Of a stretch of DNA of 64,000 nucleotides, positions 647 to 23,262 are shown piece by piece (the first letter of the stretch is position 1; the number at the start of each line of letters is the position of its first letter). The notes beneath the pieces were generated by a model. The model did not search any database. It worked only from the letters and a program-made list of their open reading frames with translations, and was not told the origin of the DNA. The DNA comes from Rhodospirillales bacterium (GTDB lineage Bacteria > Pseudomonadota > Alphaproteobacteria > Rhodospirillales > Magnetospirillaceae). Where the stretch lies: contig JACMKT010000237.1 of the NCBI GenBank assembly GCA_014380005.1, positions 1 to 64,000 on the forward strand. Direction: 5' to 3'. The position numbers and the translations under genes are program-made.

Positions 647-2218
647 TCAGCTGCTGGCGATCATCCGCCAAAAATCCGGCCAACCATCCTCACGCAACTT
701 AATTGCCATGGTTTCGCCGCGCGGCTGATCCGGGACGGGGGTCAGAACGATTTCCTGCAGCACGCATTGAAACATTAACCGCATGCGCTTGACGTCGCGC
801 GAGAGCTCGACAGCCCACATGGCCCGCGAGAGGACCACGCGGATCGCCGCCTCGTCGGGCAATGCCAGCGAAACATCGGCCTGCATTTCCAGTCGGATAT
901 GCCTCGCTTCCTCTTGCAGCGCGAGGGTCCGCCGAATGGTGTAATCCTTGTTGATGCCGCGCTCGACCGCCTCCAGGAGGTGCCCGATGCCCTGCTCGAT
1001 ATCATTCAGACGCTCTTGCAATTCTTCGCGGCGACGGGTTTCCCCGGCGAACCGTTCAAGGAATTGCGTGCGGAAATCCGGACCTTCCGCAATGCGCGCA
1101 TGCAGCGCTTTAAAAGTCGCCGCCATTACGACAGGCTCTTTCGTACCGCGCGAATTCCGGCACGTTCCAGCGTAACGATTATTCGAACAAAGATAGCGCC
1201 CCTGATTGGCAATGGATTTTTGCCCGCTGCACCAGCCGCATTTGACCCAACCAGTCAGGGCATGCTGATTGTGGGTTTTCAAAATTCGCGGGGGACTGAC
1301 CTTCGGCGTCTTTTCAGATCGGCTCCTGAGCCGGGCCTGCACACGCTCCCAAAGATCATCATCGACAATCTTCAATTCCGGGACATGTGTTCGGGTCCAT
1401 TCCTCCTCGGGATTTGGCTTGAATTGGCGCTTACCGGTAACCGGATCGCGGATAGTCCGCATCCTGTTATAGGTCAGATTGCCGATATAGACCTCGTTCC
1501 GCAGGAGCCCTTCCCGCCGCTCGATACTGCCAGCCAAGGCGTTTGCCTTCCACAGGCCGCCGGCGGGAGCGGCGACACCCTCCTGATTTAGCCGGGCCAG
1601 AATGTTAGCGACTTTTTCACCATCGGCGTATTCACGAAACACCCGGCGGACAATCGCCGCTTCGGCTTCGTTGATCTCTCTAACCCCATTGACGTTCCGC
1701 CCCTTACCGTCAACGACACCGCGCACCACTCGGTAGCCGTAGGCTCGCGATGACGGAGCAAAACCGGCTGCAACCCGTGCGGACTGACCACGGCGGACCT
1801 TTGATTTCATGTCGCGCAGAAAAAGAGCGTTCATGGTGCCCTTGAACCCGATATGCAGTTCAGTAATCCGACCCTCATGCGCGGTCCAGATCGCCACGCC
1901 ATGATAGCCAAGAGTTTCATGAAATGCCGCTATGTCCTTCAGGGAGCGGGACAAGCGGTCTAGGCCTTCGGCCACTATTAGATTGATGCGGCCAGCTTTC
2001 GCGGCCACCAGCAAGCCGATGATGCCGGGACGCTCCATGGTCGCGCCCGAGATCGCCGCGTCGGAATACACCAGGACATTAGCTGGATCAGTTCCACGAA
2101 TGTGATCGGCGATCAGGGACCGGCAAAGGGCCACTTGGTCGTCAATGGAAGATGGATTTTGGAGATCGCTTGAATAGCGGGCGTAAATGGCAATGCGAGG
2201 GTGAGGCGGGAAAATCAT
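647..2218 (-). CDS. Large serine recombinase / DNA invertase family (523 aa)
   Basis: N-terminal resolvase motifs (AIYARYSSDLQNPSSIDDQ, YSDAAISGATMERPG, LDRLSRSLKD), recombinase domain, Cys-rich zinc ribbon (CGWCSG...YLCSNNRYAGTCRN) and coiled coil. Confidence 0.93.
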   Translation of the reverse strand: MIFPPHPRIAIYARYSSDLQNPSSIDDQVALCRSLIADHIRGTDPANVLVYSDAAISGATMERPGIIGLLVAAKAGRINLIVAEGLDRLSRSLKDIAAFHETLGYHGVAIWTAHEGRITELHIGFKGTMNALFLRDMKSKVRRGQSARVAAGFAPSSRAYGYRVVRGVVDGKGRNVNGVREINEAEAAIVRRVFREYADGEKVANILARLNQEGVAAPAGGLWKANALAGSIERREGLLRNEVYIGNLTYNRMRTIRDPVTGKRQFKPNPEEEWTRTHVPELKIVDDDLWERVQARLRSRSEKTPKVSPPRILKTHNQHALTGWVKCGWCSGQKSIANQGRYLCSNNRYAGTCRNSRGTKEPVVMAATFKALHARIAEGPDFRTQFLERFAGETRRREELQERLNDIEQGIGHLLEAVERGINKDYTIRRTLALQEEARHIRLEMQADVSLALPDEAAIRVVLSRAMWAVELSRDVKRMRLMFQCVLQEIVLTPVPDQPRGETMAIKLREDGWPDFWRMIASS

Positions 2219-2976: not shown

Positions 2977-4746
2977 TCACCGCTCAACGCCCAGTTCCTT
3001 TTTGGGCGCCTTCCCCTTCTTGGGTTGGCTGGCCTTCGCCTCTGCCGGCGACAAAGCATCTTCGACAAAGGCACCCATGGTATTGGCAAGGCCCGGCTCG
3101 ACCGGCACCGCCTTTCCCTTGCCCACCTGATCGGCAATCCACTTTGCCAGCACCTGATTGCTGCTTATCGTCAGTAATTCGCCGCCTACGGCACCGGCTG
3201 CCAGGGTCACTGACCGGCTCTTTTCGGTGGTGGCTACCGTGATGGGGCTGTCCGGGTATTGCGCCCGCAATGCCCGTGCGCGGGTCGGAAGGTCCAGTTC
3301 CCGGCCGGCCACCAGCACCGGGGTTTCCGTGTTCAGGTGGATGGCGGATGCGGCCAGCACGTCGGCTGTGAGGATGATTGGGCCGCTATAGGGCTTGCCG
3401 GTGAGGTGGCCGGCAGGGTCGATGAGGTGGGTGAGGTCCGGACGGTCGGCAGGATCGCCCACGTCGCAAGTTTGGCCGTCAGCATCGAGGGCGCGGACGG
3501 CCCAGACATGGCCCTCTCTATCCCGGAATGGAAACAGCACCCGGCCCTGATCGTCTGCCTTAAGGTCCATGGCGTCCACGTCGGGCTTGGCAATGCCGGC
3601 GATGGTCGGCTGCTTCCATGGCGAAGCGGCGTACCAGCTTTGCAGGGCGGGGCTGATCGACCTGGGAGCGCGGTAGGGAGCGCGGCGGGGTGTCAGTACC
3701 TCTTCGATGGAATGCAGGAGTTCTTTGTAGGTGACGATGATGGCCAGAGCCAGGGCGTCCTTGTGGGCATCGGCCAACAGGTAGTCTTTCCAAGAGCGCA
3801 GGTTGAAGACGTTGCGACCGAGGAAGGTCGATTTCTTTTCCTGGCGATAATGCTGCCATAGCCGGTTGGTGGCCGGATGGCGGGTCAGCGGCTTGGCCTG
3901 ATACGGGCGCTTCGGATGGCGCGCTGGCGGCTTGGCCGGACCGTCGCGCTCCGGCGCCGGCACATAGGGGCCGAGACGGTCTTCCAGTTTCTTCAGCGAG
4001 CACGAGCGGTCCAGGGCGCTGGCCTTCATGGCGGCCTTGCCGCCGATCTGCACGAACACCATGCCGGCGCCGCGCTTCTTCAGCACCGCATCGAACTCGG
4101 CCAGGCCCTCGTGCACCTGGCGCCAATCGGTGGCGCCGGCGATGACGGCGAGGATCTCGGGCTCGTGCTCCTTCAGGTGGCTTTCGAAACTTTGCTGCCA
4201 GGACCTGGCCTCGTAATCCCTGGCCTTGGGCGACAGTGGATTGCGGTCCTCCATGCCCTTGTCCACCTGGAGGCCGTATTTCTGTTCCATGGCCCGAGCC
4301 ACCTTGCTCAAAGTGGCGTAATCACGGTGCGGCGTGTGAACGCGCAGCGAGGTGGGATGCACTTTGTTAAAGGCGACATGCATGTGGAAATTGTCGGTGT
4401 TGATATGGGTGCCGGCGACACGCTGATGTTCCGCGAAGCCAAGAGCTTCAGCGAAGTTCCGCTCGATGTCCTGGAGGTCTTCCAGCGAGAGCTTTTCCTG
4501 TTCGCCGTGGTGGAACGACACCACCAGATGATAGGTCTTGTCGTCGATGCCGGGCTTCATAGCCCGTGTCGCCTCGATCTCGATCAGCGCAGTATCGAGA
4601 TCGTCCAGGCCGGCGCCGGCATCGCATTTGACGATCCAGAATTTGTCGAGCTTTTCGCCTTTCTCCTTGGCCGCGGCGACGTAGCGGCCAAGGTGGGAAA
4701 AGTCGTCTCGGACGTCAGGCTTCTTGGCGATCTTCTTGGCGATCAC
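2977..4746 (-). CDS. Conjugative relaxase (MobP/VirD2-TraI-like)
   Basis: Relaxase motif pattern: HLVVSFHHGEQEKLSLEDLQDIERNFAEALGF and HQRVAGTHINTDNFHMHVAFNKVHP (HxDxxHxH-like), with a long C-terminal extension. Confidence 0.9.
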   Translation of the reverse strand: MIAKKIAKKPDVRDDFSHLGRYVAAAKEKGEKLDKFWIVKCDAGAGLDDLDTALIEIEATRAMKPGIDDKTYHLVVSFHHGEQEKLSLEDLQDIERNFAEALGFAEHQRVAGTHINTDNFHMHVAFNKVHPTSLRVHTPHRDYATLSKVARAMEQKYGLQVDKGMEDRNPLSPKARDYEARSWQQSFESHLKEHEPEILAVIAGATDWRQVHEGLAEFDAVLKKRGAGMVFVQIGGKAAMKASALDRSCSLKKLEDRLGPYVPAPERDGPAKPPARHPKRPYQAKPLTRHPATNRLWQHYRQEKKSTFLGRNVFNLRSWKDYLLADAHKDALALAIIVTYKELLHSIEEVLTPRRAPYRAPRSISPALQSWYAASPWKQPTIAGIAKPDVDAMDLKADDQGRVLFPFRDREGHVWAVRALDADGQTCDVGDPADRPDLTHLIDPAGHLTGKPYSGPIILTADVLAASAIHLNTETPVLVAGRELDLPTRARALRAQYPDSPITVATTEKSRSVTLAAGAVGGELLTISSNQVLAKWIADQVGKGKAVPVEPGLANTMGAFVEDALSPAEAKASQPKKGKAPKKELGVER

Positions 4747-5180: not shown

Positions 5181-7967
5181 TCACGCGATGCTGCGCTCCG
5201 GCGCGTTGATGCGGGCGAGTGTGGCTTCGACAACCTGGCGCACGGCGCCGTTACCGCGCGCCTTGCCCAGATCGTCAAAATCAGTGAGGCCCTTCGCCAT
5301 TTCTGCCGGGGTGAATTTCGGCGCGAAGAAATAGCCGCCTACGTTCTTGGCTGCTTCCTCGGCCTTGATCATGCCGACATTGCCAAGCTTGTTGGCGTGG
5401 TCGTTATCGGCGGCGAGGAGAATGGGACGGTCGGGGAATTTGGCGTGGACAGCTTCGGCCACGGCCAGCAAGTTACCGGAATCGAAGGCCACGACCACGG
5501 GGCGGTTGGTCGCGTCGAAAATGCGGGCGGCGGTGGCGTAGCCTTCGGCGATAACAACGGCGCCGCCGTGAGGTGTTAAGCTGTCCAGGGTGCCCTTACC
5601 AGTCGGCTCGACCACATGCATGCCGCCGGCTTTCTGGCTGTCCTTCAGCCAGCGCTTACCGTCAGCGCTGGCGAACTGGACGGTCCACAGCTTGCCGTCC
5701 GCATCACGGGCCGGGATGACCAGCTTGCCAGCGCCATCGACCTTGACGCCATGGGCACCCACACCCTTGCCGGCGAGGTATGGGCAAGTCTCCGGCGTTG
5801 CCGACGCCGGCAGGTTTGCCCAGATGCCGTAGGCGACTTTGGCAGCCTTTTCGGCCGAGTCGAGACGTTGGGCTTCTCGATCCGCGCGAACCTGTGCGGC
5901 TTCGGCCTGGATGCGGGCGCGATCCTCACCGGTCAAGGCCACGCCGACGGCCACCCATTTCTCATGGGTGCCGGATTTGTAATTGGTAATGTTCCCGGCG
6001 GGGCGGCCGTCGAGGAACCCGCGATAAGCGCCGTTCTTCTGCGCGCCCTTATCGCCGGTGACCGGCACGCGGTGCCATTTGCCGTCCATGTCGGGATCGC
6101 CGTCCAGTTCTAGCCCGTAGGACTTGAGGGCTTGGGCGAATTCCTTTTGCGGGGAAAGATCGGGTTCCGGCAGCTTGTCCTTGACCGTCCATTTGGCGAA
6201 GGGCGCTGGGTCAGCGCCTTCGGGGATGTACCAGGATTTTTCGGCGCGGGACCATTTGGCGCCGGCGGACTTGGCCTCGTCCTTCTCGGCAAAGGGAACG
6301 GCGATGAACTGGCGCTTGGATTGTTCGGCCTCGGCACGAGGGGCTTTGGTTTCGGCGGCAGTCATCGACTTTCCCCTCTGTCGTTCCCGCAACAATGCTT
6401 CCAATGTTTGTTCGTCAGCTTGCCAATATGCCCGCTCATCCTTGTTGCTGGTGCCCAAGGGATAGCGTCCGTTCGCTTCTGAGAGAGCATCGAAGCGGAA
6501 TTCCTTGCCGGCTGCGATTTCGTCGCAAACGTCGGCAAATTTAGCCCGAGAGCGGGCACGGGCGAATTGTGGATCGGTTGAGTTGCGGTCCATGTATTCG
6601 ACCGACTTTTCGAAGGCTGTGAAGTCGTAGCTTGCGGCACGTGGCCGATCGATAACCGGCATGCCGACAAGCTGCACTATGTTGGCTTCATGTCTCCAGT
6701 TGATGTCCATGGCAGGGGACTGCGCCAGCACAATGCTTTCAATTGCCCGCACTGCAAGCGGATCACTGGACAGGAGACGGGTGGAAACGTATCCCCGCGC
6801 TTCCGCGTCGCTCCGCAGACCGAGAGGATTGGGGGCACGAAGAATATCCAGTCCGCCATGCTCGGGATCGATGTCCAATCGCCAGCCCTCCCGAGCGGCA
6901 AGCTCCCGATCTTGATCGGTCCACGGTTGAGTGGAGATCGCAGCCTGACGGGGCAGTGGAGCAACTTGGGGCGTATGGGGGGATTCTGGGGCAATGCTGC
7001 TTCGCACCCCTTGTTCCCTGGACTCGATGCCGGTGCGGATCTGCGCGGTGTGCTGCTGGCGCGCGGCACGCTCCAGCTCGGGGCGCTTCTCCGGTTCCAT
7101 CACCCAGGTCTTGATGGTCTCGGCATCCTTGGCGGCGCGGAAAATCTCGTTCTTGTCCTCGCGCAGCACCTTCAGCCAAGATTCCACATAGGCCGCATGG
7201 TTGGACGGATCGAACGAGATGCCGAGATCTCGGGCCAACATGTAGCTGGAGATCTCGGCGCGGAGTTCTTCACGCGCGTAACCTTCCGAGCCGAAGGGGC
7301 CGAAGGCGCGAGACAACCTGGTCGGATGGCCGGTGGCGTGGCCCAATTCGTGGAGCGCGGTTTCATAATAGGCCGGCGCGTTCGGGAAAGCCGAGGTGGG
7401 CGGAAGGTGAATTTTATCGGTGGCCGGCTGATAGAACGCCCTGTCCGCCTGATCATGCAGCACCGGGATGCCGGCACCGGCAAGGATGGCTTCCGCCCGC
7501 TTGATGGGATCGAACGACGGCGCCGGAGCGACCCATGGCGCCAGGCCATCGATCTGTTCGGCGTTGAACACCTTGGCGTAGAAGACGCGCGGGCGGTCGA
7601 GGCGGACTTCCTGGGTCTGCTGTTTGCCCTCCGCACTGAGGACCGGCTTGCCGGCGCCGTCCACCATTGGCTCGCGCGTCGTCCACTGCCAATATTCGAT
7701 GGTGGCGGACTTCTCCCCCTTCCGCACCTGGCTGCCTTCGGCCACCGCCTGGTTATAAGTCAGCCAGCGCGGATCTGCACGGCCCTGCAGGGTCAGCCAC
7801 ATATCATTGATGCCGCGATACGGCTTACCACTGACTGGGTTGAAGGGCGCGGCGCCGATAGCGCCGGCCAGCCACGGCTTTTGCCACGGCGCTGTGCCGG
7901 CCTCAATGCGCGCGATAATTTCTTGCGCGATCTCGTCACGGTAATTGAGCTTGGGCGCGGCCATCAT
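5181..7967 (-). CDS. ArdC-like ssDNA-binding/zincin protein fused to DUF5710-like and Toprim domains (928 aa)
   Basis: N-term NYRDEIAQEIIARIEAGTAPWQKPW; HELGHATGHPTRL zincin motif; KRQFIAVPFAEKDEAKSAGAKWSRAEKSWYIP; C-term Toprim-like VIAEGYATAARIF...VVAFDSGNL. Confidence 0.88.
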   Translation of the reverse strand: MMAAPKLNYRDEIAQEIIARIEAGTAPWQKPWLAGAIGAAPFNPVSGKPYRGINDMWLTLQGRADPRWLTYNQAVAEGSQVRKGEKSATIEYWQWTTREPMVDGAGKPVLSAEGKQQTQEVRLDRPRVFYAKVFNAEQIDGLAPWVAPAPSFDPIKRAEAILAGAGIPVLHDQADRAFYQPATDKIHLPPTSAFPNAPAYYETALHELGHATGHPTRLSRAFGPFGSEGYAREELRAEISSYMLARDLGISFDPSNHAAYVESWLKVLREDKNEIFRAAKDAETIKTWVMEPEKRPELERAARQQHTAQIRTGIESREQGVRSSIAPESPHTPQVAPLPRQAAISTQPWTDQDRELAAREGWRLDIDPEHGGLDILRAPNPLGLRSDAEARGYVSTRLLSSDPLAVRAIESIVLAQSPAMDINWRHEANIVQLVGMPVIDRPRAASYDFTAFEKSVEYMDRNSTDPQFARARSRAKFADVCDEIAAGKEFRFDALSEANGRYPLGTSNKDERAYWQADEQTLEALLRERQRGKSMTAAETKAPRAEAEQSKRQFIAVPFAEKDEAKSAGAKWSRAEKSWYIPEGADPAPFAKWTVKDKLPEPDLSPQKEFAQALKSYGLELDGDPDMDGKWHRVPVTGDKGAQKNGAYRGFLDGRPAGNITNYKSGTHEKWVAVGVALTGEDRARIQAEAAQVRADREAQRLDSAEKAAKVAYGIWANLPASATPETCPYLAGKGVGAHGVKVDGAGKLVIPARDADGKLWTVQFASADGKRWLKDSQKAGGMHVVEPTGKGTLDSLTPHGGAVVIAEGYATAARIFDATNRPVVVAFDSGNLLAVAEAVHAKFPDRPILLAADNDHANKLGNVGMIKAEEAAKNVGGYFFAPKFTPAEMAKGLTDFDDLGKARGNGAVRQVVEATLARINAPERSIA

Positions 7968-8578: not shown

Positions 8579-9034
8579 CTAGGCGGCCTTGTCTTCGACC
8601 ACCGGCGTGATGCCGGTGGAGTTATCGACTTCGATTTCCACGCTGGTGCGCTTCTGGCCGTCCTGGTCCCACTCGCGCGAGCGCAGTGCGCCCTGGACCA
8701 GCATCAGCCGGCCCTTGGTCCCCTGCTTGGCGAGCACCTTGTCGATGAGCGAAGGCAGGAACGTGAAGACGCGGAGCCAATCGGTTTCGTTGCGCCATTC
8801 GCCCGTACCGGTCTTGAACGAGCGCTCAGCCGCCAAGCTGAAGGAGGCGACCTTGCCGCCGGCCTCACCGGGCATGGTCTTGATGTCGGCGTGGGCACCG
8901 AGCCGGCCTGCGAGCATGACCAGATTCATGGGTGGGGTGTCGATGGTGATCGGCACCAGGCCGCCGGTGTGATCGACCTCGATCTCCACCGTGTGGTGCT
9001 TCTGCCCGTTCTGTTCCCACGACCTGGCACGCAA
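8579..9034 (-). CDS. SSB-like OB-fold protein, downstream half of an interrupted tandem SSB gene
   Basis: MNLVMLAGRLGAHADIKTMPGEAGGKVASFSLAAERSFKTGTGEWRNETDWLRVFTF; same frame as 9041..9280; likely internal ATG at 8929. Confidence 0.8.
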   Translation of the reverse strand: MRARSWEQNGQKHHTVEIEVDHTGGLVPITIDTPPMNLVMLAGRLGAHADIKTMPGEAGGKVASFSLAAERSFKTGTGEWRNETDWLRVFTFLPSLIDKVLAKQGTKGRLMLVQGALRSREWDQDGQKRTSVEIEVDNSTGITPVVEDKAA

Positions 9035-9040
9035 CGAGCC

Positions 9041-9280
9041 CTAGACGAAGAATTGCCGGCCCTTGGTGGCTTGGCCGGTCAGCACGTTGTCGATCAGCCA
9101 GGGCATATAGGTGACCACCCGGAACCAGTGGGTCACCGTCTGGTACTTGCCGGCGCGGTTCTTGAAATGGTGATCGACGGCAAGGGAAAGGGTGGCGACC
9201 TTCCGGTTGCCGGTGAGGGTCTTGATTTCGGCGTCGCCACCGAGGCGACCGGTGAGCATCACCGAGTTTTGATTGAACAT
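9041..9280 (-). CDS. SSB-like OB-fold domain, upstream half, ending at in-frame TAG
   Basis: MFNQNSVMLTGRLGGDAEIKTLTGNRKVATLSLAVDHHFKNRAGKYQTVTHWFRVV...KGRQFFV*; homology to the downstream domain continues after the stop. Confidence 0.8.
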   Translation of the reverse strand: MFNQNSVMLTGRLGGDAEIKTLTGNRKVATLSLAVDHHFKNRAGKYQTVTHWFRVVTYMPWLIDNVLTGQATKGRQFFV

Positions 9281-9291
9281 TCGGTCTCCTT

Positions 9292-11139
9292 TCAGCGGGG
9301 GGAAGTGTCAGTGCCGGCCGCCGCACGCAGCCGGTCGGCGATGCCGGCGGCGCCGGCGGGAAGCTCGGGGGTATTTTCCTTGTCGTCACTCACAACAGGG
9401 GCCGGCGCGGGCGCGGCCTGGTCGTGGCCGACCGGCGCCGGGATGCGCGAGCGGGCATCCAAATCTTTGTCGAAGAAATAAAGCGGCTGGATGCCCAGGA
9501 TCGGCGGCTGGCCGGCGACGAAGGTGAGCATCTGTCCCGGCTTGACGATCTTGTTGGGATCGCGGCGGGACTTTTTCGCCGCCTTTAGCTTCATGACCTC
9601 GTCGTATTCCAGCAACGCGCGCTGTGTGGAATTCACCGCGTCAGTGACATTGCCGGCGACCTCCAATGCCTTCTTACTGGCGGTGCGCTTCTTCTGTACG
9701 ATGGTGGTCTTGCCGCACATCTCCGACAGCACCTTGGCCGTCGATACCTCGTTCGGGGCATAGGCAATCTTCACCTTGCACAGCCCCATGATGGAGTTCT
9801 TCTCCCCGTAATGGGTTTGAAGCTGTGTCAGGTCCTGGACGATCAGGAAGGCCTTGATGCCGTAGCCGCCCATGTAGGCCATGGACTGTTCGAAAATTTC
9901 GAGCTTCTTCACCGAAGTGAACTCGTCGAACATGATCAGCAGCCGGCGCTTGTAATTGGCGTTGCCGCTAGCGTCGAAGGTTTTCATCAGGCGGCGCAGC
10001 AGCAGATTCCAAAGGACGCGCAACAGTGGCCGGAGCCGGTCGATGTCGGACGGCGGCACGATGATGTAGAGCGACACAGCCTGATCACCGTGCATAAGGT
10101 CGGTCAGGCTGAAATCCGAAGCAGCCGTGTTGGCGGCAATGATCGGATCGCGATAAAGCGACAAATCAACTTTGGAAGAAGAGAGGACGCCGGAACGTTC
10201 CTGTGCTGCCTTGTCCTGCATTTCCTGACCGGAAGCTTGGATCAATTCAGTCGCTGCCGGCGTCGTGGCCTGGAAGGCGATCATGTTTCTCAGCACCGAA
10301 TCGATGCCTTCACCCGGATTGGTCAGGATCATATCCACGTCGTGGAGCGAGGCTTCCCGGTCGTGGTCCTGCCGCATCTTGTAGAGGCTGTATAAAATTG
10401 CTGCACAGAGCCATGAGAAGCCCGATTTCTGCCAGAAATCGGCAAGGCCCTTGCCATCGGGATCAACGATCAGCAGGGCGATGTTCTGCGCATCAGCGAC
10501 TTCATGGATGGTACCGAACCGCACGTCCGACAGCGGATTGAAGCGAATGCTTCCAGTTTCGGTCGTTGGATCGAATTTAAGGATGCGCTGGCCCTGTGCC
10601 GCTCGCCATCCTGCCGATTTGGCGTAGTTCTCTCCGCGAATGTCATGGACCACGACCGATTCCGGCCAACTCAACAGCGTGGGGATCACGAGGCCTGTGC
10701 CTTTGCCGGAGCGCGGCGGGGCGAAGCACAGCACATGTTCGGGACCGTCGTCGCGGAGCGACTTGGTGCGGAACAGCTTGCGCCAGCCGCCGACCACCAC
10801 GCCGGTTGCACGCCAAAGGCCCGCATCCTTGATGTCAGCCAGCCGAGCCCAGCGGGCGGACCCGTGCAGAGTATTTTCGCCATGGGCTCCATGGAGGGTG
10901 CGTGCGCCGATCCGCGAGGCGATGACCATCAGCAGCACCAGTTGGCCGATGATCGCCCCGGCTGCGCCGTACAAGCCCCACAGTAGGAAGGAGGGCAGCG
11001 CCTTATAGGCTTTGACGTAGTTCCACACCCAGACCCAGGAATGGGCTTCCAGGGGATAGAAGTCCCACACCGACTGCCACAGCCAGCCGGTGCCAACGAT
11101 GGTGGCCACCACCACGACGGGGAGAAGGAGAGCGATCAT
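9292..11139 (-). CDS. virD4: Type IV secretion coupling protein VirD4/TraG
   Basis: Walker A-type FAPPRSGKGTGLVIPTLL; Walker B-type RLLIMFDEFTSVKKL; N-terminal TM segments. Confidence 0.92.
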   Translation of the reverse strand: MIALLLPVVVVATIVGTGWLWQSVWDFYPLEAHSWVWVWNYVKAYKALPSFLLWGLYGAAGAIIGQLVLLMVIASRIGARTLHGAHGENTLHGSARWARLADIKDAGLWRATGVVVGGWRKLFRTKSLRDDGPEHVLCFAPPRSGKGTGLVIPTLLSWPESVVVHDIRGENYAKSAGWRAAQGQRILKFDPTTETGSIRFNPLSDVRFGTIHEVADAQNIALLIVDPDGKGLADFWQKSGFSWLCAAILYSLYKMRQDHDREASLHDVDMILTNPGEGIDSVLRNMIAFQATTPAATELIQASGQEMQDKAAQERSGVLSSSKVDLSLYRDPIIAANTAASDFSLTDLMHGDQAVSLYIIVPPSDIDRLRPLLRVLWNLLLRRLMKTFDASGNANYKRRLLIMFDEFTSVKKLEIFEQSMAYMGGYGIKAFLIVQDLTQLQTHYGEKNSIMGLCKVKIAYAPNEVSTAKVLSEMCGKTTIVQKKRTASKKALEVAGNVTDAVNSTQRALLEYDEVMKLKAAKKSRRDPNKIVKPGQMLTFVAGQPPILGIQPLYFFDKDLDARSRIPAPVGHDQAAPAPAPVVSDDKENTPELPAGAAGIADRLRAAAGTDTSPR

Positions 11140-12089
11140 GCTGCGGCCTCCTGCAGCATGTGGCCGTCCTTCATCACCCAATTATCGTTGCTCGGTTCGT
11201 AGATGTCGGTGATGCGCCGGTTGCCGTCATCGTCGCGTTTGATTTGGACAATGACATCGACCAGATTGACCAAATATTCGGCCACGCGGGGCATGCTTTG
11301 ACCCGACCATGCAATCAGCTGGTCGAACTTCCGCTGGATCACTTCCTCTGGACTGGAGGCGTGGATCGAGCACATAAAGCCGTTGATGCCGGCGTTCAGG
11401 GCGCCGAGTGCAGCAAAGGCGTTCTGGGTGCTGATTTCGCCGAAGATCACATAATCGGGCGTGGCACGCATCTTGTGGTCATAGAGCGGGCGCCAGTCGA
11501 TCATGCCTGAGGAGGTGGACGCTTCGCGTGCCGCCAGCAATCCGACGCCATCCCAGAACCGGTCGATTTCCAGTTCCGGGGTATCCTCGGCGGCGACGAC
11601 GCGGCAGGTATCGGGCAGGAAGTGCAACAGCTTGTTGATCAAGGTGGTTTTGCCGGTGTTGGTGCCACCGGCGATGATCATGTTCGCTTTGCGCTCCATG
11701 GCCGCCTGGAGATAGGCGACCACGTCAGGGGTGACCCCCAACTGCTCCCAGGTGGGGGTGAAAGGATGCTTGCAGCGGATTGCCATGGAAATGCCCGACT
11801 GCACGGACGCGCCCATGAGGCATTCAAAGCGGTGTCGCACCTCCGGCACGACGCAGCTCAGTTTGGGCGCCGCACCGGGGTCGAACTTCACACCAGTGAA
11901 GTTCGCCAGCGACCGGCAAATGTCCTCGATGCGGGCCAGCGTCAGTTCCGGTGCATCGATCAGGAACTTGCCGACGCCGCGCTGATCAATGATGACTTTC
12001 TTCGCCTCGGTCATGCGCATTTCGACGGTGGATGGATCGTCGTAGAACGTCGCCAGCGGGCGCAGGATGGTGGAGATTGCCGAGGCCAT
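11136..12089 (-). CDS. virB11: Type IV secretion ATPase VirB11
   Basis: MIIAGGTNTGKTTLINKLL (Walker A), VAAEDTPELEI, RATPDYVIFGEI. Confidence 0.92.
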   Translation of the reverse strand: MASAISTILRPLATFYDDPSTVEMRMTEAKKVIIDQRGVGKFLIDAPELTLARIEDICRSLANFTGVKFDPGAAPKLSCVVPEVRHRFECLMGASVQSGISMAIRCKHPFTPTWEQLGVTPDVVAYLQAAMERKANMIIAGGTNTGKTTLINKLLHFLPDTCRVVAAEDTPELEIDRFWDGVGLLAAREASTSSGMIDWRPLYDHKMRATPDYVIFGEISTQNAFAALGALNAGINGFMCSIHASSPEEVIQRKFDQLIAWSGQSMPRVAEYLVNLVDVIVQIKRDDDGNRRITDIYEPSNDNWVMKDGHMLQEAAA

Positions 12090-12091
12090 GA

Positions 12092-14293
12092 TCAGAACCC
12101 CGCCGGGCAGGACGTGCCATAGGCGGCGCTGTAGCTCGCCCATGACGCGCCCGTGGCAGCGTTAATGTTGTAACCCCATCCGCCGTTGCAATTATTTCCG
12201 TCAATCGCTCCTGTGTTGTCCTGGCCGTCTGTTACGTTATAGGTGGATTGTTCCACGCAAGTTGTGCTGATGACGGTCCCTGTTTCGGTGTTCTTCTTTT
12301 CGATTTTGTTGATGGTGTGGATGCCACGCCCATAAGACTTGCTGGAATAGGCCGCGCTGCACCAAACAGTGAGTTCGAGGTTCCCGGATTTGATATTGTT
12401 GCTGATGCACACGTCGGGGACAATAACCGGCGTGCCGGTGCCAATTTGCTTAAGGTATTCCGTCTCATCGGGCCGCTTCCAACGTTCGTACTTCGCGGTC
12501 TCCCGATATGCCTTGCAGCCAGAAGGCGGCGGCTCATAGCTCGACTGGCCGGTATTCTGGTCCACGGTCTCTTCCAGCACATAGGATAGCTGCGCGGCAC
12601 CGGGCAACACCTCGGACGAAGCGACAGTGAAGGGGGTGCCATTGACGGTGATTGTCACCGTGGACAGCGGATAGGCCCATAGTTGCTCATCGTGATTCTG
12701 GTAGCCGGTGACCGTCTCATCGTGCGGGTAAGTCACCGTCGAGTTCTGGCACGGGGTGACGTATTCCGGCGTGCCGTCCACCTTCTTGTAATAAAACCGC
12801 TCCTGTCCGTAAGAGATGTTGGCATCAAGGTCATGCGTCCATCCTGCCGGGTCCATGCAGCCGTTCGGGGTGGAAAGGATCGCCTGGGGTGAGGTATCCG
12901 GGGTGCAATCGGTGATGAACTGAGGGACGCCATCGACGGTGATGCGCCGCCTGGATTGCAACGTCGCCGTCTTGGTCGTCATGCTTGTGATAGCCGGGCA
13001 GATGTAGTTTCCGGCGACATCCGCGTAGACGATCTCGTGGGGGAAGGTGCGGTCAGTGTCGGCGCACGGTGCGGCCTGATAGGTCACACCGTTGCGGACA
13101 TACGTCCACATGGACAGTTCGTAGCTGAGTTTTGCCGCGTAATCTGGCCGCATGGGGCAGGCGGACTTGTTTTCGCTCATGGGGATGGCGGCGGATTTGG
13201 TTGACGCGGCGCAGCCCTTGCCCGGAACCTGCGTCAAGGCGTTGTTGCGCCCGATGTAGACAAAGGCCGATTGCGGCACCGCTTTTTGTTCAAGGAAGTC
13301 CAGATAGACGGGGCACTGTCCCTCGTCCTCGGTGATGGTGTAGATGGTTTCTTCGTCCTTGCCGCACTCACCGACCGGATGGTTTTCCCCGGCCTCGTTC
13401 ACGTAGTACCATTGGAATTGCGGCCACGCCTGGAGCGTATCAATGTTCACATTGTCAGTCGGGCACGCCTGAAATGACTTCTTCAGGGGATAGCTAATTT
13501 CGGAGTCAGTACAGGTGCCGTCGCTGGTCAAGGCCCCATCAGTGAAGGTCTGTTCCTTCGATTGGACCACGGCCTTGCCCTGCGCCAGGTCGATACGCAC
13601 GGTGCAACCGTCTTGGCTGGTCCGGACATCCACCACAGGGTCTTTTTCTTCCGGGGCGGCCGCCGCAACGGTCGGTGTCCTATAGCTGGCCGCCTGGTCG
13701 TTTCCCGTCTTGCCGCCGTTGGACACCGGATTGTCGGCTACGCTGTCCTTCTCGACCTTCTTTTTCTCGTCGTCCTTCGTGGGTTCGGCGAGGCGCTGCA
13801 GGGCGGCTACCAGGGCCGTCTTGCTGCCTTTCACCTCCAAAGTCTTTTCGGGGAAAAGCTGGCTGGTTTCCTTGGCGTCCCATTGCGCGGTCATGCCTTC
13901 GGTCGAAATGGTTTCCGTCCGATCACCCTTGGCAACCGTCATCACCAGGACCTGACCGATAGTTTGGTCTTCAACCGTCACCTTGCGAGCGTAGCCGTTG
14001 GCGGTGACACCGGTCACCAATTGGGCGGGCACACCTTCAATCTGGCCGAGGTTAAACGACGTGGCCACCGGCTGTTCGGGAAGCGGTAAAGCCGCCTTGG
14101 GCCACACCGGCACGGTGATCACGTCAGAGGACGGCATGGTGCCGGCGTTGCCGGCGGATGTTTGTGCCGGCGACGTGGTGGCCTTCGCTGGAGCGGTCTG
14201 CGCATTGGCGACGGCATAAGACAGAATCATGAGAGACGCGGCCAGCGCCGCGAAAACAAAATCAAAGCGTAAGTGTTTGCGCATGACGGTCAC
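12092..14293 (-). CDS. Secreted cysteine-repeat protein in T4SS operon (733 aa; TraN-like role is speculative)
   Basis: Signal-peptide-like N-terminus (FVFAALAASLMILSYAVANAQ); roughly 50-aa units ending in CP/C-containing motifs; overlaps the virB10 stop. Confidence 0.75.
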   Translation of the reverse strand: MTVMRKHLRFDFVFAALAASLMILSYAVANAQTAPAKATTSPAQTSAGNAGTMPSSDVITVPVWPKAALPLPEQPVATSFNLGQIEGVPAQLVTGVTANGYARKVTVEDQTIGQVLVMTVAKGDRTETISTEGMTAQWDAKETSQLFPEKTLEVKGSKTALVAALQRLAEPTKDDEKKKVEKDSVADNPVSNGGKTGNDQAASYRTPTVAAAAPEEKDPVVDVRTSQDGCTVRIDLAQGKAVVQSKEQTFTDGALTSDGTCTDSEISYPLKKSFQACPTDNVNIDTLQAWPQFQWYYVNEAGENHPVGECGKDEETIYTITEDEGQCPVYLDFLEQKAVPQSAFVYIGRNNALTQVPGKGCAASTKSAAIPMSENKSACPMRPDYAAKLSYELSMWTYVRNGVTYQAAPCADTDRTFPHEIVYADVAGNYICPAITSMTTKTATLQSRRRITVDGVPQFITDCTPDTSPQAILSTPNGCMDPAGWTHDLDANISYGQERFYYKKVDGTPEYVTPCQNSTVTYPHDETVTGYQNHDEQLWAYPLSTVTITVNGTPFTVASSEVLPGAAQLSYVLEETVDQNTGQSSYEPPPSGCKAYRETAKYERWKRPDETEYLKQIGTGTPVIVPDVCISNNIKSGNLELTVWCSAAYSSKSYGRGIHTINKIEKKNTETGTVISTTCVEQSTYNVTDGQDNTGAIDGNNCNGGWGYNINAATGASWASYSAAYGTSCPAGF

Positions 14294-15405
14294 TCCACCA
14301 CTTTCGAGATGTACCAGTCCGCATCGGGGCGGATCACCACACGTTGGCCCTGGAAGGTTTTGAGGATCGGAACGAGGTTGATGGTGCGTTCCAGAGCGGC
14401 GGCGCCGATCTCGCCAAACCGCTGGGAAAGCTCCTGGCCGCCCTGCGAAAGGGCGCCGCCATCGGAATAGCTACTGGATGATCCAGATGCCGACGACGAG
14501 CTGCTGGACGTGGCGGTCCCGGCCTGGGCAGTCGCCATACGCACGGCGGCGGAAATGCCGGCGAGGATCGTGGCTGTGCCGTAGGTTTCCCAGATGCGGT
14601 TGTCCACCTCGCCCGAGGCGCCGAGGTGGCCCTGCACGTCGAAGACGTTGGACCGCATGTTGAAGATTTCGAAGCGCGAGCCGCCGGCCAGCAGGCGCGA
14701 GCACCGCCATTGGGAGCGGGTGGCGCCGACCTTTTCCAGGCTCTTGTAGCCGCAGACCAGGCGCGAGCCCTTCGGGATTAGGATGTTGCGGCCGTGGTAG
14801 CCGAACACATCCCGGCTCACCTGAATGACGGTGGTGCCGCCGACCGTGCCATCCAGCTGCGAGTTCGTGCCGTTCTCGACGATGCCGGTGATGATGCGGT
14901 CGGTGGTCAGCATGCGGCTGTTGTCCACGGGACGCGTGGACGTGACGGCCTTTTCCTCGTATTCGGCGCCACCGGGCACCTTAACCGTGGCGGCCAGATC
15001 GAGAGGCATGGCCGGGGCTGTTATATGGGGCTGTGCCGCTGTGGCGCTGGTGCCGATCTGCGGCATGGACACCGGCAACGCCACTTCTGACCATCCCGCT
15101 CGGTTGGCTGAACGACGGCGGTAAGAAGCCTGCACGGCATCCGCATAGGGATCAGGCTCCGGCGCTGTCGCAACCGGTGCCGGCGGCGCCGAAGCGGGCA
15201 CTTCCTTGATGATGGTTTTTTCGATGATCACCGGGGGCATGGCCGGCGCTGGGGCGGGAGCAGGCGCCGGGGGCGGTGCCTCAGCCTTGACGGCCCAGGC
15301 ACCCGGCTCATTCGGCGGCATGGGCTCAGGCGTGGCCGTGGCCGGCTGGCATGCGCCGGAAAGCGTCATGCCCAGCGCCAAGGCCAAGTCGCAGATCGCG
15401 GACAT
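14290..15405 (-). CDS. virB10: VirB10/TrbI-type T4SS protein
   Basis: Pro-rich N-term region; TDRIITGIVENGTNSQLDGTVGGTTVIQVSRDVFGYHGRNILIPKGSRLVCGYKS is VirB10-like. Confidence 0.9.
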   Translation of the reverse strand: MSAICDLALALGMTLSGACQPATATPEPMPPNEPGAWAVKAEAPPPAPAPAPAPAMPPVIIEKTIIKEVPASAPPAPVATAPEPDPYADAVQASYRRRSANRAGWSEVALPVSMPQIGTSATAAQPHITAPAMPLDLAATVKVPGGAEYEEKAVTSTRPVDNSRMLTTDRIITGIVENGTNSQLDGTVGGTTVIQVSRDVFGYHGRNILIPKGSRLVCGYKSLEKVGATRSQWRCSRLLAGGSRFEIFNMRSNVFDVQGHLGASGEVDNRIWETYGTATILAGISAAVRMATAQAGTATSSSSSSASGSSSSYSDGGALSQGGQELSQRFGEIGAAALERTINLVPILKTFQGQRVVIRPDADWYISKVVE

Positions 15406-16568
15406 CAGGGCTGGTCCCCGGTGTACTGGATGCAGAGATACTTTTTGCCGTCTTTCAGGGTGATGAGCGGCGCGACGCTTTCGATGATGTACGTGCTGCC
15501 CTGGACGCGGGTGTTGACCAGTTCGTCAATGCCATCGATCGTCACGTAGGCGGTGCCCAACTCCATGCCGTCCCACTTCTTGCCGTATCGGATGTACGTG
15601 AAGAAGTCGTCGCGGTAGACCATTTCGGGCTTCAGCTCGCTGTCGCCTTTGAGGCTGTAATCCTTCCAGCCGTGCAGCTTGGCCGGATCGAACGGGACAT
15701 TGCGCACGAAGTCGCCGCTGGGCGGCGCCGGGCTGGTCAGATCGCGGACGGCAGCCGCCGTCTTGGCGTCCAGTTTGGGGACTGCACCTTTCTCTTGTCG
15801 TGGCGACGTGCCGGCGGCGGCAGCCTGTTCGGGCAGGCCAGGGACTTCGGGCTTCTCCCGACCGACGATCTTCACGACCAGATCGGGGACGTTTACCGAG
15901 TTGAAACCCTCGGAACGGAGATAGAAGGCATAGATACGTCCCGACTTGGTCTGAACGGTGAGGTTCGTGTCGGTGCCATACAGATCAGGGCGGATGGCGA
16001 TGGTGTTGGCCGTCTTCACCTTCGCCTTGAATCCTGCCGGGTCGCCCAGATCCGGCGGCACGGCGATCACCGCATCCTCGGGGAGGATAATGGTGGTGGT
16101 CATCATTTCGCGGGTGCGGACTTTATAGATGCAGTCATCGCACAGCTGGATGGCATAGACGCCCTGGCGCTTCTGGCCGGTGGCCGGATCGGCTTCGATC
16201 TTGTCCCAGGCTTCCTGAATTTGGCCGCCCGGCCCCTGGCGCTGCATTTCCGTGTACAGCCCCTCAGACTGTTCCAGCGCCTGGGTGTAGTTGGCCGCCG
16301 ACATGGGGATTTTCCCCGGCTGGCCGGCCTGCTGCTGTCCGCCCTGAGGCTGCTGCGGGCTGGAGGGTTGTGCCGTTGCCGCAGCAGGGGCGGTTGCCGG
16401 CGGCGACTTGCCGGGTGGCGTGGCCGGCACCGGCTGTCCGATGGTCCGGGTTGGAATCTGGTTCTGGCCTTGGCCCTTGCTTCCCAAGGGCGTCTGGGCC
16501 AGGACGAACGACGGCGAGGACATGAGCAGCACAAAGGCAGCCGCAGCCGCATGGCGACGACGGGTCAT
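15405..16568 (-). CDS. virB9: VirB9/TrbG-type T4SS protein
   Basis: Signal peptide; periplasmic beta-rich region; VYRDDFFTYIRYGKKWDGMELGTAYVTIDGIDELVNTRVQGSTYIIESVAPLITLKDGKKYLCI. Confidence 0.88.
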   Translation of the reverse strand: MTRRRHAAAAAFVLLMSSPSFVLAQTPLGSKGQGQNQIPTRTIGQPVPATPPGKSPPATAPAAATAQPSSPQQPQGGQQQAGQPGKIPMSAANYTQALEQSEGLYTEMQRQGPGGQIQEAWDKIEADPATGQKRQGVYAIQLCDDCIYKVRTREMMTTTIILPEDAVIAVPPDLGDPAGFKAKVKTANTIAIRPDLYGTDTNLTVQTKSGRIYAFYLRSEGFNSVNVPDLVVKIVGREKPEVPGLPEQAAAAGTSPRQEKGAVPKLDAKTAAAVRDLTSPAPPSGDFVRNVPFDPAKLHGWKDYSLKGDSELKPEMVYRDDFFTYIRYGKKWDGMELGTAYVTIDGIDELVNTRVQGSTYIIESVAPLITLKDGKKYLCIQYTGDQP

Positions 16569-17383
16569 GAATTCCCCCTTTCTTTGAGCACAACCACGCC
16601 CGACCGGAAGCCCTGCGGGTTTTCGAATTTTTCCGACGGCTTGACAGTGTGCGGGCGCGCGGTGACCGGCAGGTATGCGCGCAGGCGCTTCACCTCGACC
16701 ACGTCCCCACGGCGCGTATCGGTCTGGACGAAATCGACGGCATAGCGATAGGTGCCGTTGCGTTCCGAGATACGGTCAGCACTCTCCACGACGATGGAGC
16801 GGATCAGGCCGCTCTTGATGGCGGCGTCAATTTCCTTCTTCCGCTCAGCGATGAACTGTTTCCACCAGTCTGTATCGGAATGCAGATTGGCCTCGCGCAT
16901 GCGGTCGTCCTGGGATACCGGATCTATCTCCAACAGGATGCGGACATACCTGCGGACGAAGGCCTCCATCATGATGTCGTAGCCCGGCGTCTCCTTGGTG
17001 ATCGGCAGCACCCGGACCAGCGAGGCCGGATCGACCGGCACTGCCTTGTCGTCGCGCTGCTCGATCCTGACGAGGCCCATTTGGGTCTCTTTCAGCGGCA
17101 CCAGTTGGGAAATCGCCGAGGTTAAGGAGATGATCACGGCGAATTGACCGATGCAGATCATCACGACCAGGCGGAAGATCCAGGCGAGGCGGCGGTGCGC
17201 AGCTTCAAACGCGTACGGATCGGCTTTGGTATGGGCGCTGTGATCGACCGGCTTTGATTTCTCCTCCGGAGAAACTTCAACTGTCGATTCCGGCTGTTCA
17301 GCAGGGCTGCTTTTGCCGAGAAACGGCGTTCGCCGTATCCGGAACGCTCCCTGCCCGAAGATGCGTTTGAACACCGCAAGCAT
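16565..17383 (-). CDS. virB8: VirB8-type T4SS protein
   Basis: Single TM (IFRLVVMICIGQFAVIISLTSAI) followed by a VirB8-like periplasmic domain; position in operon; ATGA overlap with virB7-like gene. Confidence 0.85.
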   Translation of the reverse strand: MLAVFKRIFGQGAFRIRRTPFLGKSSPAEQPESTVEVSPEEKSKPVDHSAHTKADPYAFEAAHRRLAWIFRLVVMICIGQFAVIISLTSAISQLVPLKETQMGLVRIEQRDDKAVPVDPASLVRVLPITKETPGYDIMMEAFVRRYVRILLEIDPVSQDDRMREANLHSDTDWWKQFIAERKKEIDAAIKSGLIRSIVVESADRISERNGTYRYAVDFVQTDTRRGDVVEVKRLRAYLPVTARPHTVKPSEKFENPQGFRSGVVVLKERGNS

Positions 17384-17556
17384 CAGCCCAGGTCCCAGCG
17401 ATAGAATTGAGGCTCGTAGGGCACGGTCACACAGGCGCACGGCGACTTGAGCATTTCATCCGTGCCGGAACCGTCCTTCTGAAGTTCGACATTGCTGCTG
17501 GTACCGCAGGCGGCCAGCAGCAGGGCGGCGGCGGCAATAAACGGGATCATCTTCAT
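17383..17556 (-). CDS. VirB7-like lipoprotein (57 aa)
   Basis: MKMIPFIAAAALLLAACGTSS carries a lipobox (LLAAC); located between virB6 and virB8. Confidence 0.75.
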   Translation of the reverse strand: MKMIPFIAAAALLLAACGTSSNVELQKDGSGTDEMLKSPCACVTVPYEPQFYRWDLG

Positions 17557-17590
17557 AGTTCCCCCCTTGGCGTGAGAAATCGGCCGGGCG

Positions 17591-18667
17591 TCAGGAGCCC
17601 GGCTTGTTGATGTTTTGGAATTTGTTGACGAGATTCTGGACAGCGCCGGCCGGATCAGCCATTGCCTTCTGACCTGCAAAGAAGCCGCGGCTGATGCCGG
17701 CAAGCGCGTTACCGGCCATGGGCAGGCCATGCTTCGCGCCGGCCATGGCGGAGCCCGCGACTCCGGCGCTCAATATGCCGGCAGCGGTATTGGTAAGAGC
17801 GGTCTGCGCGATACTGTTGGCAATGGCTGTTCCCTCGGTCATGAGCGCCGTGCCCATCCAGCCGAGGAACAGGATCACCAGGAACTTCGGATTGCTCACG
17901 CTGGCGAACTGGTTGAGCGTGTCGCCGGTCATATCCTTTGGGTCGAACGTGATGCCTTTCGAAACGCCGAAGATGGTTATCGACAGCGCCGCTGTGCTGG
18001 CGAACAGCACAACTACGGCGGCCAGCAGCGTTTTGGCGCCCGACTTCGCCATGTCCCGGCCCCAGCCGAAGGCAAAGGCCATGAATAGGAACGGCCCGAA
18101 TACCCCAACCATCGTGACGCGGAAGATCGCAACCACGACCTGGCTGGAATAAACCACGACGAGCAGGAAGTACGGCACGACCAGCAGGACGGCGTAAACG
18201 TACAGGACGAAGCGATAGAGGGAGCCCGCGCTGACAATGGCCCCGGCAGCTTGGAAAACCTTGTAAACGGCTTGTTCACCGTTGGCGGCCAGCGCCACCA
18301 GTCCGGTATAGCCAGTGCTTTTTGAGGTCGTCGCCAGGGAGAAGACTGAAGAACTCGCCCCGCCCATGATGTCGAGAGACGTGCTGTAATTCCAAGCAAT
18401 GAGACTAACGCCTAGACTTCCGAGTAATACGCCGGTTATACTGACATAGATAAACTCTTCTGCGATCTTGTTCAGATCGGTCATTCTTAGTGCGAGTTTT
18501 ACGCCTGAAACGACAATCCAAAGACCAGCAAAGGAAGCGAACATTATGAGCATGGGGGTCTGGAGCGCGTCACTGAGACGGTCCACGAATTCTTGCGACA
18601 AGTCCACGTATGCTTGGAGCGGTTCGCACGTCCAACAGGTAGTGGCGAGATCGTCAGCCATTTCCAT
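17591..18667 (-). CDS. virB6: VirB6/TrbL-type polytopic T4SS protein
   Basis: Multiple TM segments; N-terminal CWTCEPLQAYVDLSQEFVDRLSDAL; position in operon. Confidence 0.85.
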   Translation of the reverse strand: MEMADDLATTCWTCEPLQAYVDLSQEFVDRLSDALQTPMLIMFASFAGLWIVVSGVKLALRMTDLNKIAEEFIYVSITGVLLGSLGVSLIAWNYSTSLDIMGGASSSVFSLATTSKSTGYTGLVALAANGEQAVYKVFQAAGAIVSAGSLYRFVLYVYAVLLVVPYFLLVVVYSSQVVVAIFRVTMVGVFGPFLFMAFAFGWGRDMAKSGAKTLLAAVVVLFASTAALSITIFGVSKGITFDPKDMTGDTLNQFASVSNPKFLVILFLGWMGTALMTEGTAIANSIAQTALTNTAAGILSAGVAGSAMAGAKHGLPMAGNALAGISRGFFAGQKAMADPAGAVQNLVNKFQNINKPGS

Positions 18668-18989
18668 GGCGCTCCTTGCCGCGACCCCAGAGATGGCGGT
18701 GGCCGCCGAATCGATGGCCGGATTTCAATACGGAATTCAGCAGACGCTGGCTGGACTGAAAGTAATTGGCTTTATCTTCCTCGCGCTTGTTGTCGTGTTC
18801 GCCTTTGCGAGTGGAAGCAAAAGGCCAACACAGGTGCCGAAAAAGAAAGCTGGTCCCGTTGGAGGATCGCACGCGGTAGAAGGCATGATCTTGGATGCAG
18901 ACGCCGAAAATCCTCTGGTCCGTCACGCAGCCCGCCGACTTCCACTTTGGGCCACGGACGCAGCCCGCATTTTCTCTGATCGACGTTGA
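18666..18989 (+). CDS. Putative small membrane protein antisense to operon direction (107 aa)
   Basis: MALLAATPEMAVAAESMAGFQYGIQQTLAGLKVIGFIFLALVVVFAFASGSKRPTQVPKKKAG: clear TM followed by positive residues. No convincing minus-strand CDS in this interval. Confidence 0.45.
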   Translation: MALLAATPEMAVAAESMAGFQYGIQQTLAGLKVIGFIFLALVVVFAFASGSKRPTQVPKKKAGPVGGSHAVEGMILDADAENPLVRHAARRLPLWATDAARIFSDRR

Positions 18990-18991
18990 GG

Positions 18992-19780
18992 TCATTTGCC
19001 GTCTTCCCCCGTCTTTGACGGTTCCTTGACGGCATCAAGGGACAAACCGGCGGCGGCCTGACCGGCGGAAGTCACCTTGAGCAGTTGAGCGAGTGTCTGG
19101 CTTTGGGAGGCCTGCGCCCGGGCCTGCAGGATTTGCGCCTGCGCCTGGACGTGCAGGCGATCCTGCACAGTGGCGGCGTTGTTAAGATTGGACTGCAGAT
19201 CATCAGCGGCTTTGTTGAGTTCGTCCGCCTGCTTCATCTGCACGTCGCTCTGTGCGAGCGCACGAACCACAGTGTCTTGGAAAAAGGCGTTGCGATTGGA
19301 TTCCGCTACGTGACGCGCCTGCGCCTGCTCGTTGAAGCCCATCTTGTTAAGTTGCTTGGCATCGACAAACAGGGAGGACTTGTAGCTGGAGGCCAGATCG
19401 CAAATCGAGCCGAGGTTCATATCTTCGAACTTGATGCCCCAGCCTGCGCCATCGGGCATCAAGCAACGCATGTCGCTTTTAATCTGCGAGGCGAACTTAT
19501 CGATGCGGGGAATGGGCAGGCTGATGTGTGTCAGTGCACCGATGGCTTCCGACGTCTCGTTCACAAATTTAGTGATGTCGGTGAGAAAGCTCAGTTGCTC
19601 CTTGAGCGTCTGAAGTTGCGCGAGTTCAGCCGCGTACTCATCTTTCATCTGCTTAAGTTGCTCAATGGCTTTGCCAACCATCGTGCCGTCGAGCACCGCC
19701 ATAGCCGCCTGCGCGGCATAAGGCGCCGTCAGCCCCAGACCGAGGGCGAGCAACGCCGTTCTTAGACGTGAGACGGCCAT
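18992..19780 (-). CDS. virB5: VirB5/TrbJ-type pilus-associated protein
   Basis: Signal peptide; LKQMKDEYAAELAQLQTLKEQLSFLTDITKFVNETSEAIGAL; Gln-rich C-terminal helix. Confidence 0.82.
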   Translation of the reverse strand: MAVSRLRTALLALGLGLTAPYAAQAAMAVLDGTMVGKAIEQLKQMKDEYAAELAQLQTLKEQLSFLTDITKFVNETSEAIGALTHISLPIPRIDKFASQIKSDMRCLMPDGAGWGIKFEDMNLGSICDLASSYKSSLFVDAKQLNKMGFNEQAQARHVAESNRNAFFQDTVVRALAQSDVQMKQADELNKAADDLQSNLNNAATVQDRLHVQAQAQILQARAQASQSQTLAQLLKVTSAGQAAAGLSLDAVKEPSKTGEDGK

Positions 19781-22104: not shown

Positions 22105-22439
22105 GAACGGCCCCCACGGGGCGAAACAGGAGCAGCCCCGGCAAGCAGCCATCGGCGGGGAGAACCTCGCCAGAAGCGGGAGCTAGTCAGGAAGACGGAT
22201 TCGATGTGGCGGTCGATACGTCCCACGCGCCACGCTAGCACCAGCCCCCCAACCAGCGTCACGGCGAAGCCAATGAGTGCAAAGGCGATTGCTGCGGAGG
22301 CCACAAAGATGCCCACGAAGAACAGCACCACCAGCACCAGCACCGCCGCGACGATGGCCGCAATCACCATCAGGGGCGGAAGCCCGAATATGGTGTCAGG
22401 AGACTGCATGTGCGTGAGGACGACCGACCGCGCCTTCAT
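22101..22439 (-). CDS. virB3: VirB3-like membrane protein
   Basis: MKARSVVLTHMQSPDTIFGLPPLMVIAAIVAAVLVLVVLFFVG; located between virB2 and virB4. Confidence 0.78.
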   Translation of the reverse strand: MKARSVVLTHMQSPDTIFGLPPLMVIAAIVAAVLVLVVLFFVGIFVASAAIAFALIGFAVTLVGGLVLAWRVGRIDRHIESVFLTSSRFWRGSPRRWLLAGAAPVSPRGGRS

Positions 22440-22747
22440 GATGACTTCTGCATCAGTTCGATCAGCCATACGATGGCGAGCGGCCCAACTGTCACCAGAA
22501 GACCGGAAACGAAATAAATCCAGATTTTGTCGAATTCGATGCGCTGCTTGACGGCACCGATGATGCCGTAGATGACAATGCACAGGCCGATGATGCCGCC
22601 GGCCACACCGACAATGACTTTGGTCAACGACGAAACGCCTTCGTTGACGGAACTGCCCCAATCCGCATCGGCTGCCAAAGCCGGATAAGCCACCATAACA
22701 GCGGCAATAGCCGCTCCCATGGCAATGGCGCGATAAGAAGCCTTCAT
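22436..22747 (-). CDS. virB2: VirB2-like pilin
   Basis: Signal peptide plus two TM segments (SLTKVIVGVAGGIIGLCIVIYGIIGA, IWIYFVSGLLVTVGPLAIVWLIELM). Confidence 0.82.
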   Translation of the reverse strand: MKASYRAIAMGAAIAAVMVAYPALAADADWGSSVNEGVSSLTKVIVGVAGGIIGLCIVIYGIIGAVKQRIEFDKIWIYFVSGLLVTVGPLAIVWLIELMQKSS

Positions 22748-22761
22748 GAAACGAACCCCCT

Positions 22762-23262
22762 TTAGCGGATGATGGATGTGAGGATGGAAAGGGTGAGGCC
22801 GCAGCCCGCGACCGTGAGGATGGTGAGCAGGATCATCACCAGCCGATGGCGCCGAATGGATCGGTGCAGATCGGCCATGGCGACGGCCTGGCGTTCGACC
22901 AGCGCGAACGCTTGGTCGAGACTGGCCTTGATGGTCTTGTCCTTGAGGCTGGCGAGAACCGCTTCCACGGCCTCGGCGCAGGCATTGCCGGTGGCGCCGA
23001 GCAGATTGCGGATAGCCTCGTCGTGACGAGCAAGCATGCGGTCGTAATCACGCACGAAGCCCTGATGGAGCGTCACCACCATGAGCAGCGGATCATCCTT
23101 GCCCACGGCCACACCGTGCTCACGCACCAGGGCGGCGCGGGCATCGTCCAGGCTCATGACCGGGAAGGCCGGCGGCTGGTCACCGCCGGCACCCGAAGTC
23201 GAAGCCTGACCCTCGGACAGTATTTCCCCCGTCTCCGGGTCGAAGATCGGCGTGCCGCTCAT
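22762..23262 (-). CDS. IncP TraM-like conjugal transfer protein
   Basis: LLMVVTLHQGFVRDYDRMLARHDEAIRNLL plus C-terminal TM; next to TraL-like gene. Confidence 0.65.
   Translation of the reverse strand: MSGTPIFDPETGEILSEGQASTSGAGGDQPPAFPVMSLDDARAALVREHGVAVGKDDPLLMVVTLHQGFVRDYDRMLARHDEAIRNLLGATGNACAEAVEAVLASLKDKTIKASLDQAFALVERQAVAMADLHRSIRRHRLVMILLTILTVAGCGLTLSILTSIIR

Follow-up and report, generated by a model that had tools for sequence, protein, structure and literature searches.

An SSB architecture with two OB folds in one chain is best known from Thermus and Deinococcus. The gonococcal genetic island, which carries a type IV secretion system, encodes an SSB of its own, SsbB, to which no role in DNA secretion could be assigned (PMC3334931). 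In Magnetospirillum gryphiswaldense MSR-1, the plasmid pMSR-1 carries an ssb gene (WP_011899510.1, MGR_RS00115) directly after a VirD4 gene, and its product and the protein considered here share 75% identity across both domains in full. With regard to interrupted genes, in-frame stops in bacteria were found in a survey to be widespread, mostly short-lived and overall under purifying selection; genes of the mobilome were over-represented among them, and readthrough was argued to be frequent (PMC7918605).

The gene described here shares with pMSR-1 ssb its two domains and its position directly after the VirD4 gene; it differs in having an in-frame stop where pMSR-1 has CAC, and in its ArdC-type neighbor, no ArdC gene having been found beside pMSR-1 ssb. 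It lies in the window, by which we mean the whole stretch of 64,000 nucleotides analysed, on a 74,540-base contig (C25) of a draft assembly of 287 contigs that totals 4.24 Mb, with 97.9% completeness and 6.25% contamination. We consider it likely that the stop is an amber codon peculiar to this copy, which prematurely ends the ssb gene of an integrated conjugative element in a bacterium of the genus Magnetospirillum: an ordinary nonsense allele, probably a recent one, which lowers SSB output.

A two-domain ssb gene with one internal stop

Read on the minus strand, positions 9280-8579 translate as a single frame. Its sole internal stop is the TAG at 9043-9041 (codon 80 of 233), beyond which the frame stays open to a terminal TAG at 8581-8579. 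The features of the gene are as follows:

8579 to 9280, minus strand: ssb of the conjugative element, with two SSB/OB domains and one in-frame amber codon (translation, Pfam, uninterrupted relatives)
9041 to 9043, minus strand: in-frame TAG, codon 80, where relatives have CAC, CAT or CAG (alignment of relatives)
8936 to 9280, minus strand: OB1, residues 1-115, in which the stop cuts the predicted strand 76-90 (Pfam and structure model)
8582 to 8935, minus strand: OB2, complete, with strands predicted between residues 119 and 226 (Pfam and structure model)
9285 to 9292, minus strand: ribosome-binding site AAAGGAGA of the true start, ATG 9280 (duplex with the 16S tail, -9.0 kcal/mol)
8927 to 8929, minus strand: ATG proposed for reinitiation, without a ribosome-binding site (duplex with the 16S tail, +0.4 kcal/mol)
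8953 to 9030, minus strand: possible RNA hairpin, beginning 10 nt past the amber codon (shuffling test, z -2.1)

A sequence-only reading had proposed that the ORFs 9041-9280 and 8579-9034 share one frame and together form a tandem SSB gene with homology intact past the stop, and the analysis bears this out. The first ORF matches the Pfam SSB profile PF00436 at 3.9e-12, over profile positions 2-74 of 104 only, the second at 8e-22 over positions 1-100 of 104, and the read-through frame contains two PF00436 domains (6.4e-42); a complete SSB OB domain is present as OB2, and OB1 is complete only if the stop is read through. Full-length relatives, 70-75% identical, align over the stop position without a gap, and a two-domain frame across the stop is thus far beyond chance. 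As to the second ORF, which that reading began at TTG 9034, the frame is right; the start was placed mechanically, and the ribosome-binding site in front of it is weak.

Modelled with AlphaFold, the read-through frame folds into two OB barrels (mean pLDDT 87.7, pTM 0.83). Since the stop falls inside the predicted strand 76-90 of OB1, a 79-residue product would be without the end of the first barrel, the lost remainder being strands 93-102 and 107-110 of the model.

Chromosomal SSBs in the genus terminate in DLDDDIPF, but this protein has VVEDKAA at its end and its relatives are alike in this; an acidic C-terminal tip of the DDDIPF type is absent from the element SSB and from its relatives, and for this reason we have not filed it as a housekeeping SSB. 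The two-OB form lacking this tip is conserved in the element family across two families of the order (loci L035-L039, L073, L074, L076 and L077).

The surrounding element

By gene content, the window looks over its first 24.4 kb like an integrated conjugative element: a serine recombinase, a relaxase, MobC, an ArdC-type protein, ssb, VirD4, VirB11 to VirB2 and TraL. The annotated parts of the element other than ssb are:

647 to 2218, minus strand: serine recombinase with Resolvase and Recombinase domains (profile match)
2977 to 4746, minus strand: MobA/VirD2-type relaxase (profile match)
5181 to 7967, minus strand: protein with ArdC N-domain, metallopeptidase and Toprim domains, downstream of ssb in the same orientation (profile match)
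9292 to 11181, minus strand: VirD4-type coupling protein, upstream neighbor of ssb (profile match)
11136 to 23996, minus strand: type IV secretion genes VirB11 to VirB2 and TraL, without lesions relative to pMSR-1 (comparison with pMSR-1)

In the stretches of the element's transfer genes that align with pMSR-1, we found no stops or frameshifts. The ArdC-type protein is 928 residues long and includes a DUF5710 domain as well; several of its relatives match the N-terminal third only. The element is followed by a Tad-type protein, after which come metabolic and signalling genes of ordinary kinds; positions 51549-53873, outside the element, encode a protein in which a TPR-S sensor domain is combined with an adenylate/guanylate cyclase domain.

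Uninterrupted relatives and the origin of the two domains

Relatives were sought in 317 genomes of the order, and in plasmids, viral contigs and genome contigs. Within the order, a two-domain ssb was found in G007 (two loci), G001, G012, G207 (three loci) and G210; pMSR-1, the sole relative in the plasmid search at the DNA level, makes the ninth other full-length locus, the nine not being all independent, as the pMSR-1 protein is identical to one from G007. The viral contigs yielded no relative, and the genome contigs only a Magnetospirillum MAG (W65) at the same locus as G012. This match, together with the identity of the G007 and pMSR-1 proteins, shows the relatives within the genus to be Magnetospirillum. 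By host, the nine comprise pMSR-1, an MSR-1-like chromosome (twice) and two more genomes of the genus Magnetospirillum; the remaining four belong to another family of the order. The MSR-1-like chromosome (G007; L036 and L037) carries the element twice, and the two-domain ssb genes of the two copies are nearly identical; in the other family, G207 (L073, L076 and L077) has three diverged copies, each flanked by VirD4 and ArdC genes.

None of the nine loci has an internal stop. The position is occupied by CAC in four (pMSR-1, both G007 loci and one G207 locus), by CAT in one (G001) and by CAG in three (G012/W65, G210 and one G207 locus), and the third G207 locus (L077) has Q there according to its protein; the comparison of CAG with TAG in homologous elements, which the sequence-only reading had called for, thus returned TAG in no case. 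Judged from these alignments, the stop is private to the present copy. Homologues arranged as two separate genes with a conserved stop were looked for and not seen; with all nine loci uninterrupted, the stop is neither a conserved recoding signal nor part of a two-gene arrangement. A single change from CAG to TAG, as that reading had suggested for a Q position, would be the simplest origin: CAG or Q in some relatives and in the second domain suggests CAG as the parent codon, whereas histidine (CAC or CAT) is found about as often.

In a tree of the separate domains, calculated without Thermus or Deinococcus sequences, the OB1s of nine aligned proteins form one group and the OB2s another (support 94/95 and 93/87). 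This argues for an established fusion and not a chance join. Both groups stand apart from chromosomal SSBs, and the single-domain SSBs of two sister elements adjoin them; the two domains of the family look, from this tree, like a duplication within the element lineage. In all neighborhoods compared VirD4 lies on one side of ssb, and ArdC on the other in all but pMSR-1; the single-domain SSBs (G006 and G046) occupy this same VirD4-ssb-ArdC slot with their own starts.

Age of the stop and rival explanations

Pairwise dN/dS past the stop is similar to that among the intact copies, and residues private to the present copy are not concentrated there. We saw no further lesions and no relaxed selection in ssb, a comparison of low power given that only 36 OB1 codons lie past the stop. 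An old pseudogene was rejected on these grounds, and a recent nonsense allele remains. Sequence without decay past the stop fits a recent origin and equally a base error; it fits readthrough or reinitiation as well. As for the cause of the change, CCAGG sites are hotspots of C-to-T change in the presence of a Dcm-type methylase. Deamination of 5-methylcytosine at CCAGG is unsupported in the present host, in whose genome no C5 methyltransferase (PF00145) was found, the E. coli control being positive.

That the TAG is a base-calling or assembly error, the true gene being uninterrupted like its relatives, is unlikely, if the least unlikely of the alternatives. The stop is unique among ten loci, sequence downstream of it is undecayed, and the draft is contaminated and in many contigs, one of which reduces our trust in it further: the contig with the chromosomal ssb ends in a chimeric-looking, low-GC stretch. 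An error of that kind differs from a single substitution, however, the site is not a homopolymer, and the other element genes are unbroken relative to pMSR-1. Over its OB domain the chromosomal gene itself (C29; L003, positions 1-600) is normal. Within the glycine-rich linker, close to where the contig stops, it passes into sequence whose GC content drops to 36% and which has no DDDIPF tail, although one is expected; this end is probably a chimeric assembly join.

Reinitiation, by which the gene would be effectively split and OB2 translated on its own into a small SSB, starting at ATG 8929 or at a GTG or TTG before it, we regard as improbable. OB2 is complete, and single-domain SSBs do sit in the same slot of the sister elements; those genes, however, have purine-rich ribosome-binding sites of their own, whereas ATG 8929, the restart put forward by the sequence-only reading, has none and is separated from the stop by about 110 nt. 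The earlier candidates TTG 9034, GTG 8989 and GTG 8956 form duplexes with the 16S tail of -3.0, -3.6 and -5.0 kcal/mol, weaker than that of the true start. Still more doubtful is amber readthrough giving some full-length two-OB protein, whether through a suppressor tRNA or through leaky termination helped by the hairpin. The undecayed sequence past the stop and the argued frequency of readthrough in bacteria (PMC7918605) are in keeping with it, as is the hairpin, matched in stability by only three of 200 shuffles; the hairpin was not seen in the three relatives checked, however, and conservation of the stop, a mark of readthrough, is found in none of the orthologues. TAG is moreover a normal terminator here, ending both ssb itself and the next gene. 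A search for a suppressor tRNA found no anticodon CTA among 37 tRNAs (Rfam tRNA model), nor by an anticodon/T-loop pattern, a negative of little weight because the inventory is incomplete: tRNA-Trp and tRNA-Tyr were likewise not found, and a pattern of the same type missed tRNA-Tyr. Beyond the weak and unconserved hairpin, readthrough has gained no positive support, and among the options put forward from the sequence it is the recent nonsense mutation that fares best, with the stop in this copy only and the surrounding transfer genes intact.

Expected consequences of the probable nonsense allele

The parent gene makes one two-OB protein which, to judge from its domains and the place of its gene beside that of the coupling protein, presumably coats single-stranded DNA of the element during or after transfer. 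With the nonsense allele, translation would most likely end at residue 79, giving an OB1 fragment unable to complete its barrel, and OB2 would be made little or not at all; SSB output lost or strongly reduced is the most likely outcome. The loss would probably be recent and tolerated, with the host SSB perhaps standing in and the element otherwise intact. We infer that the mutation is real, that it arose recently and that it reduces SSB output; it may also act in a polar manner on the genes for ArdC, MobC and the relaxase, which lie downstream.

The loss is probably tolerable, since in two sister elements the slot is taken by a single-domain SSB; on the same evidence, the two-domain form would seem dispensable in the element family. 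It would be quite another matter, and one we think very improbable, for the amber codon to be tolerated and partly bypassed, with most ribosomes stopping there and minor readthrough aided by the hairpin, or restart, yielding a mixture of two-OB and OB2-only proteins in an element that is moving from a two-domain SSB towards a single-domain one of the kind seen in its sister elements. By far the best account of the stop, and the most likely, is an ordinary one: either a nonsense allele confined to this copy or an error in one base of the draft, and not a new reading of the genetic code.

Comparison with known systems

Taken alone, the interrupted gene is of little significance, as premature stops are common in genes of mobile elements, and it fits the ordinary background of the surveyed in-frame stops (PMC7918605). 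A TAG that is both real and tolerated would point to a two-OB SSB being dispensable for these conjugative elements. The more useful by-product is the two-OB SSB that the element family has as its own and that occurs in two bacterial families.

Among solved structures, the best matches of the model are the SSBs of Thermus aquaticus and Deinococcus radiodurans (2IHF, 2FXQ and 1SE8; E from 1e-15 to 2e-14, TM normalized to the query 0.70-0.76), which like the read-through frame have two OB folds in one chain; identity to them is 18-23%, and the present gene is on a mobile element. The gonococcal SsbB differs in being tetrameric and in lying in a different gene cluster (PMC3334931). The single-domain SSBs of the sister elements (G006 C48 and G046 C128) share the slot between VirD4 and ArdC and are 71-74% identical to OB2; they differ in having one OB domain, with a start of its own.
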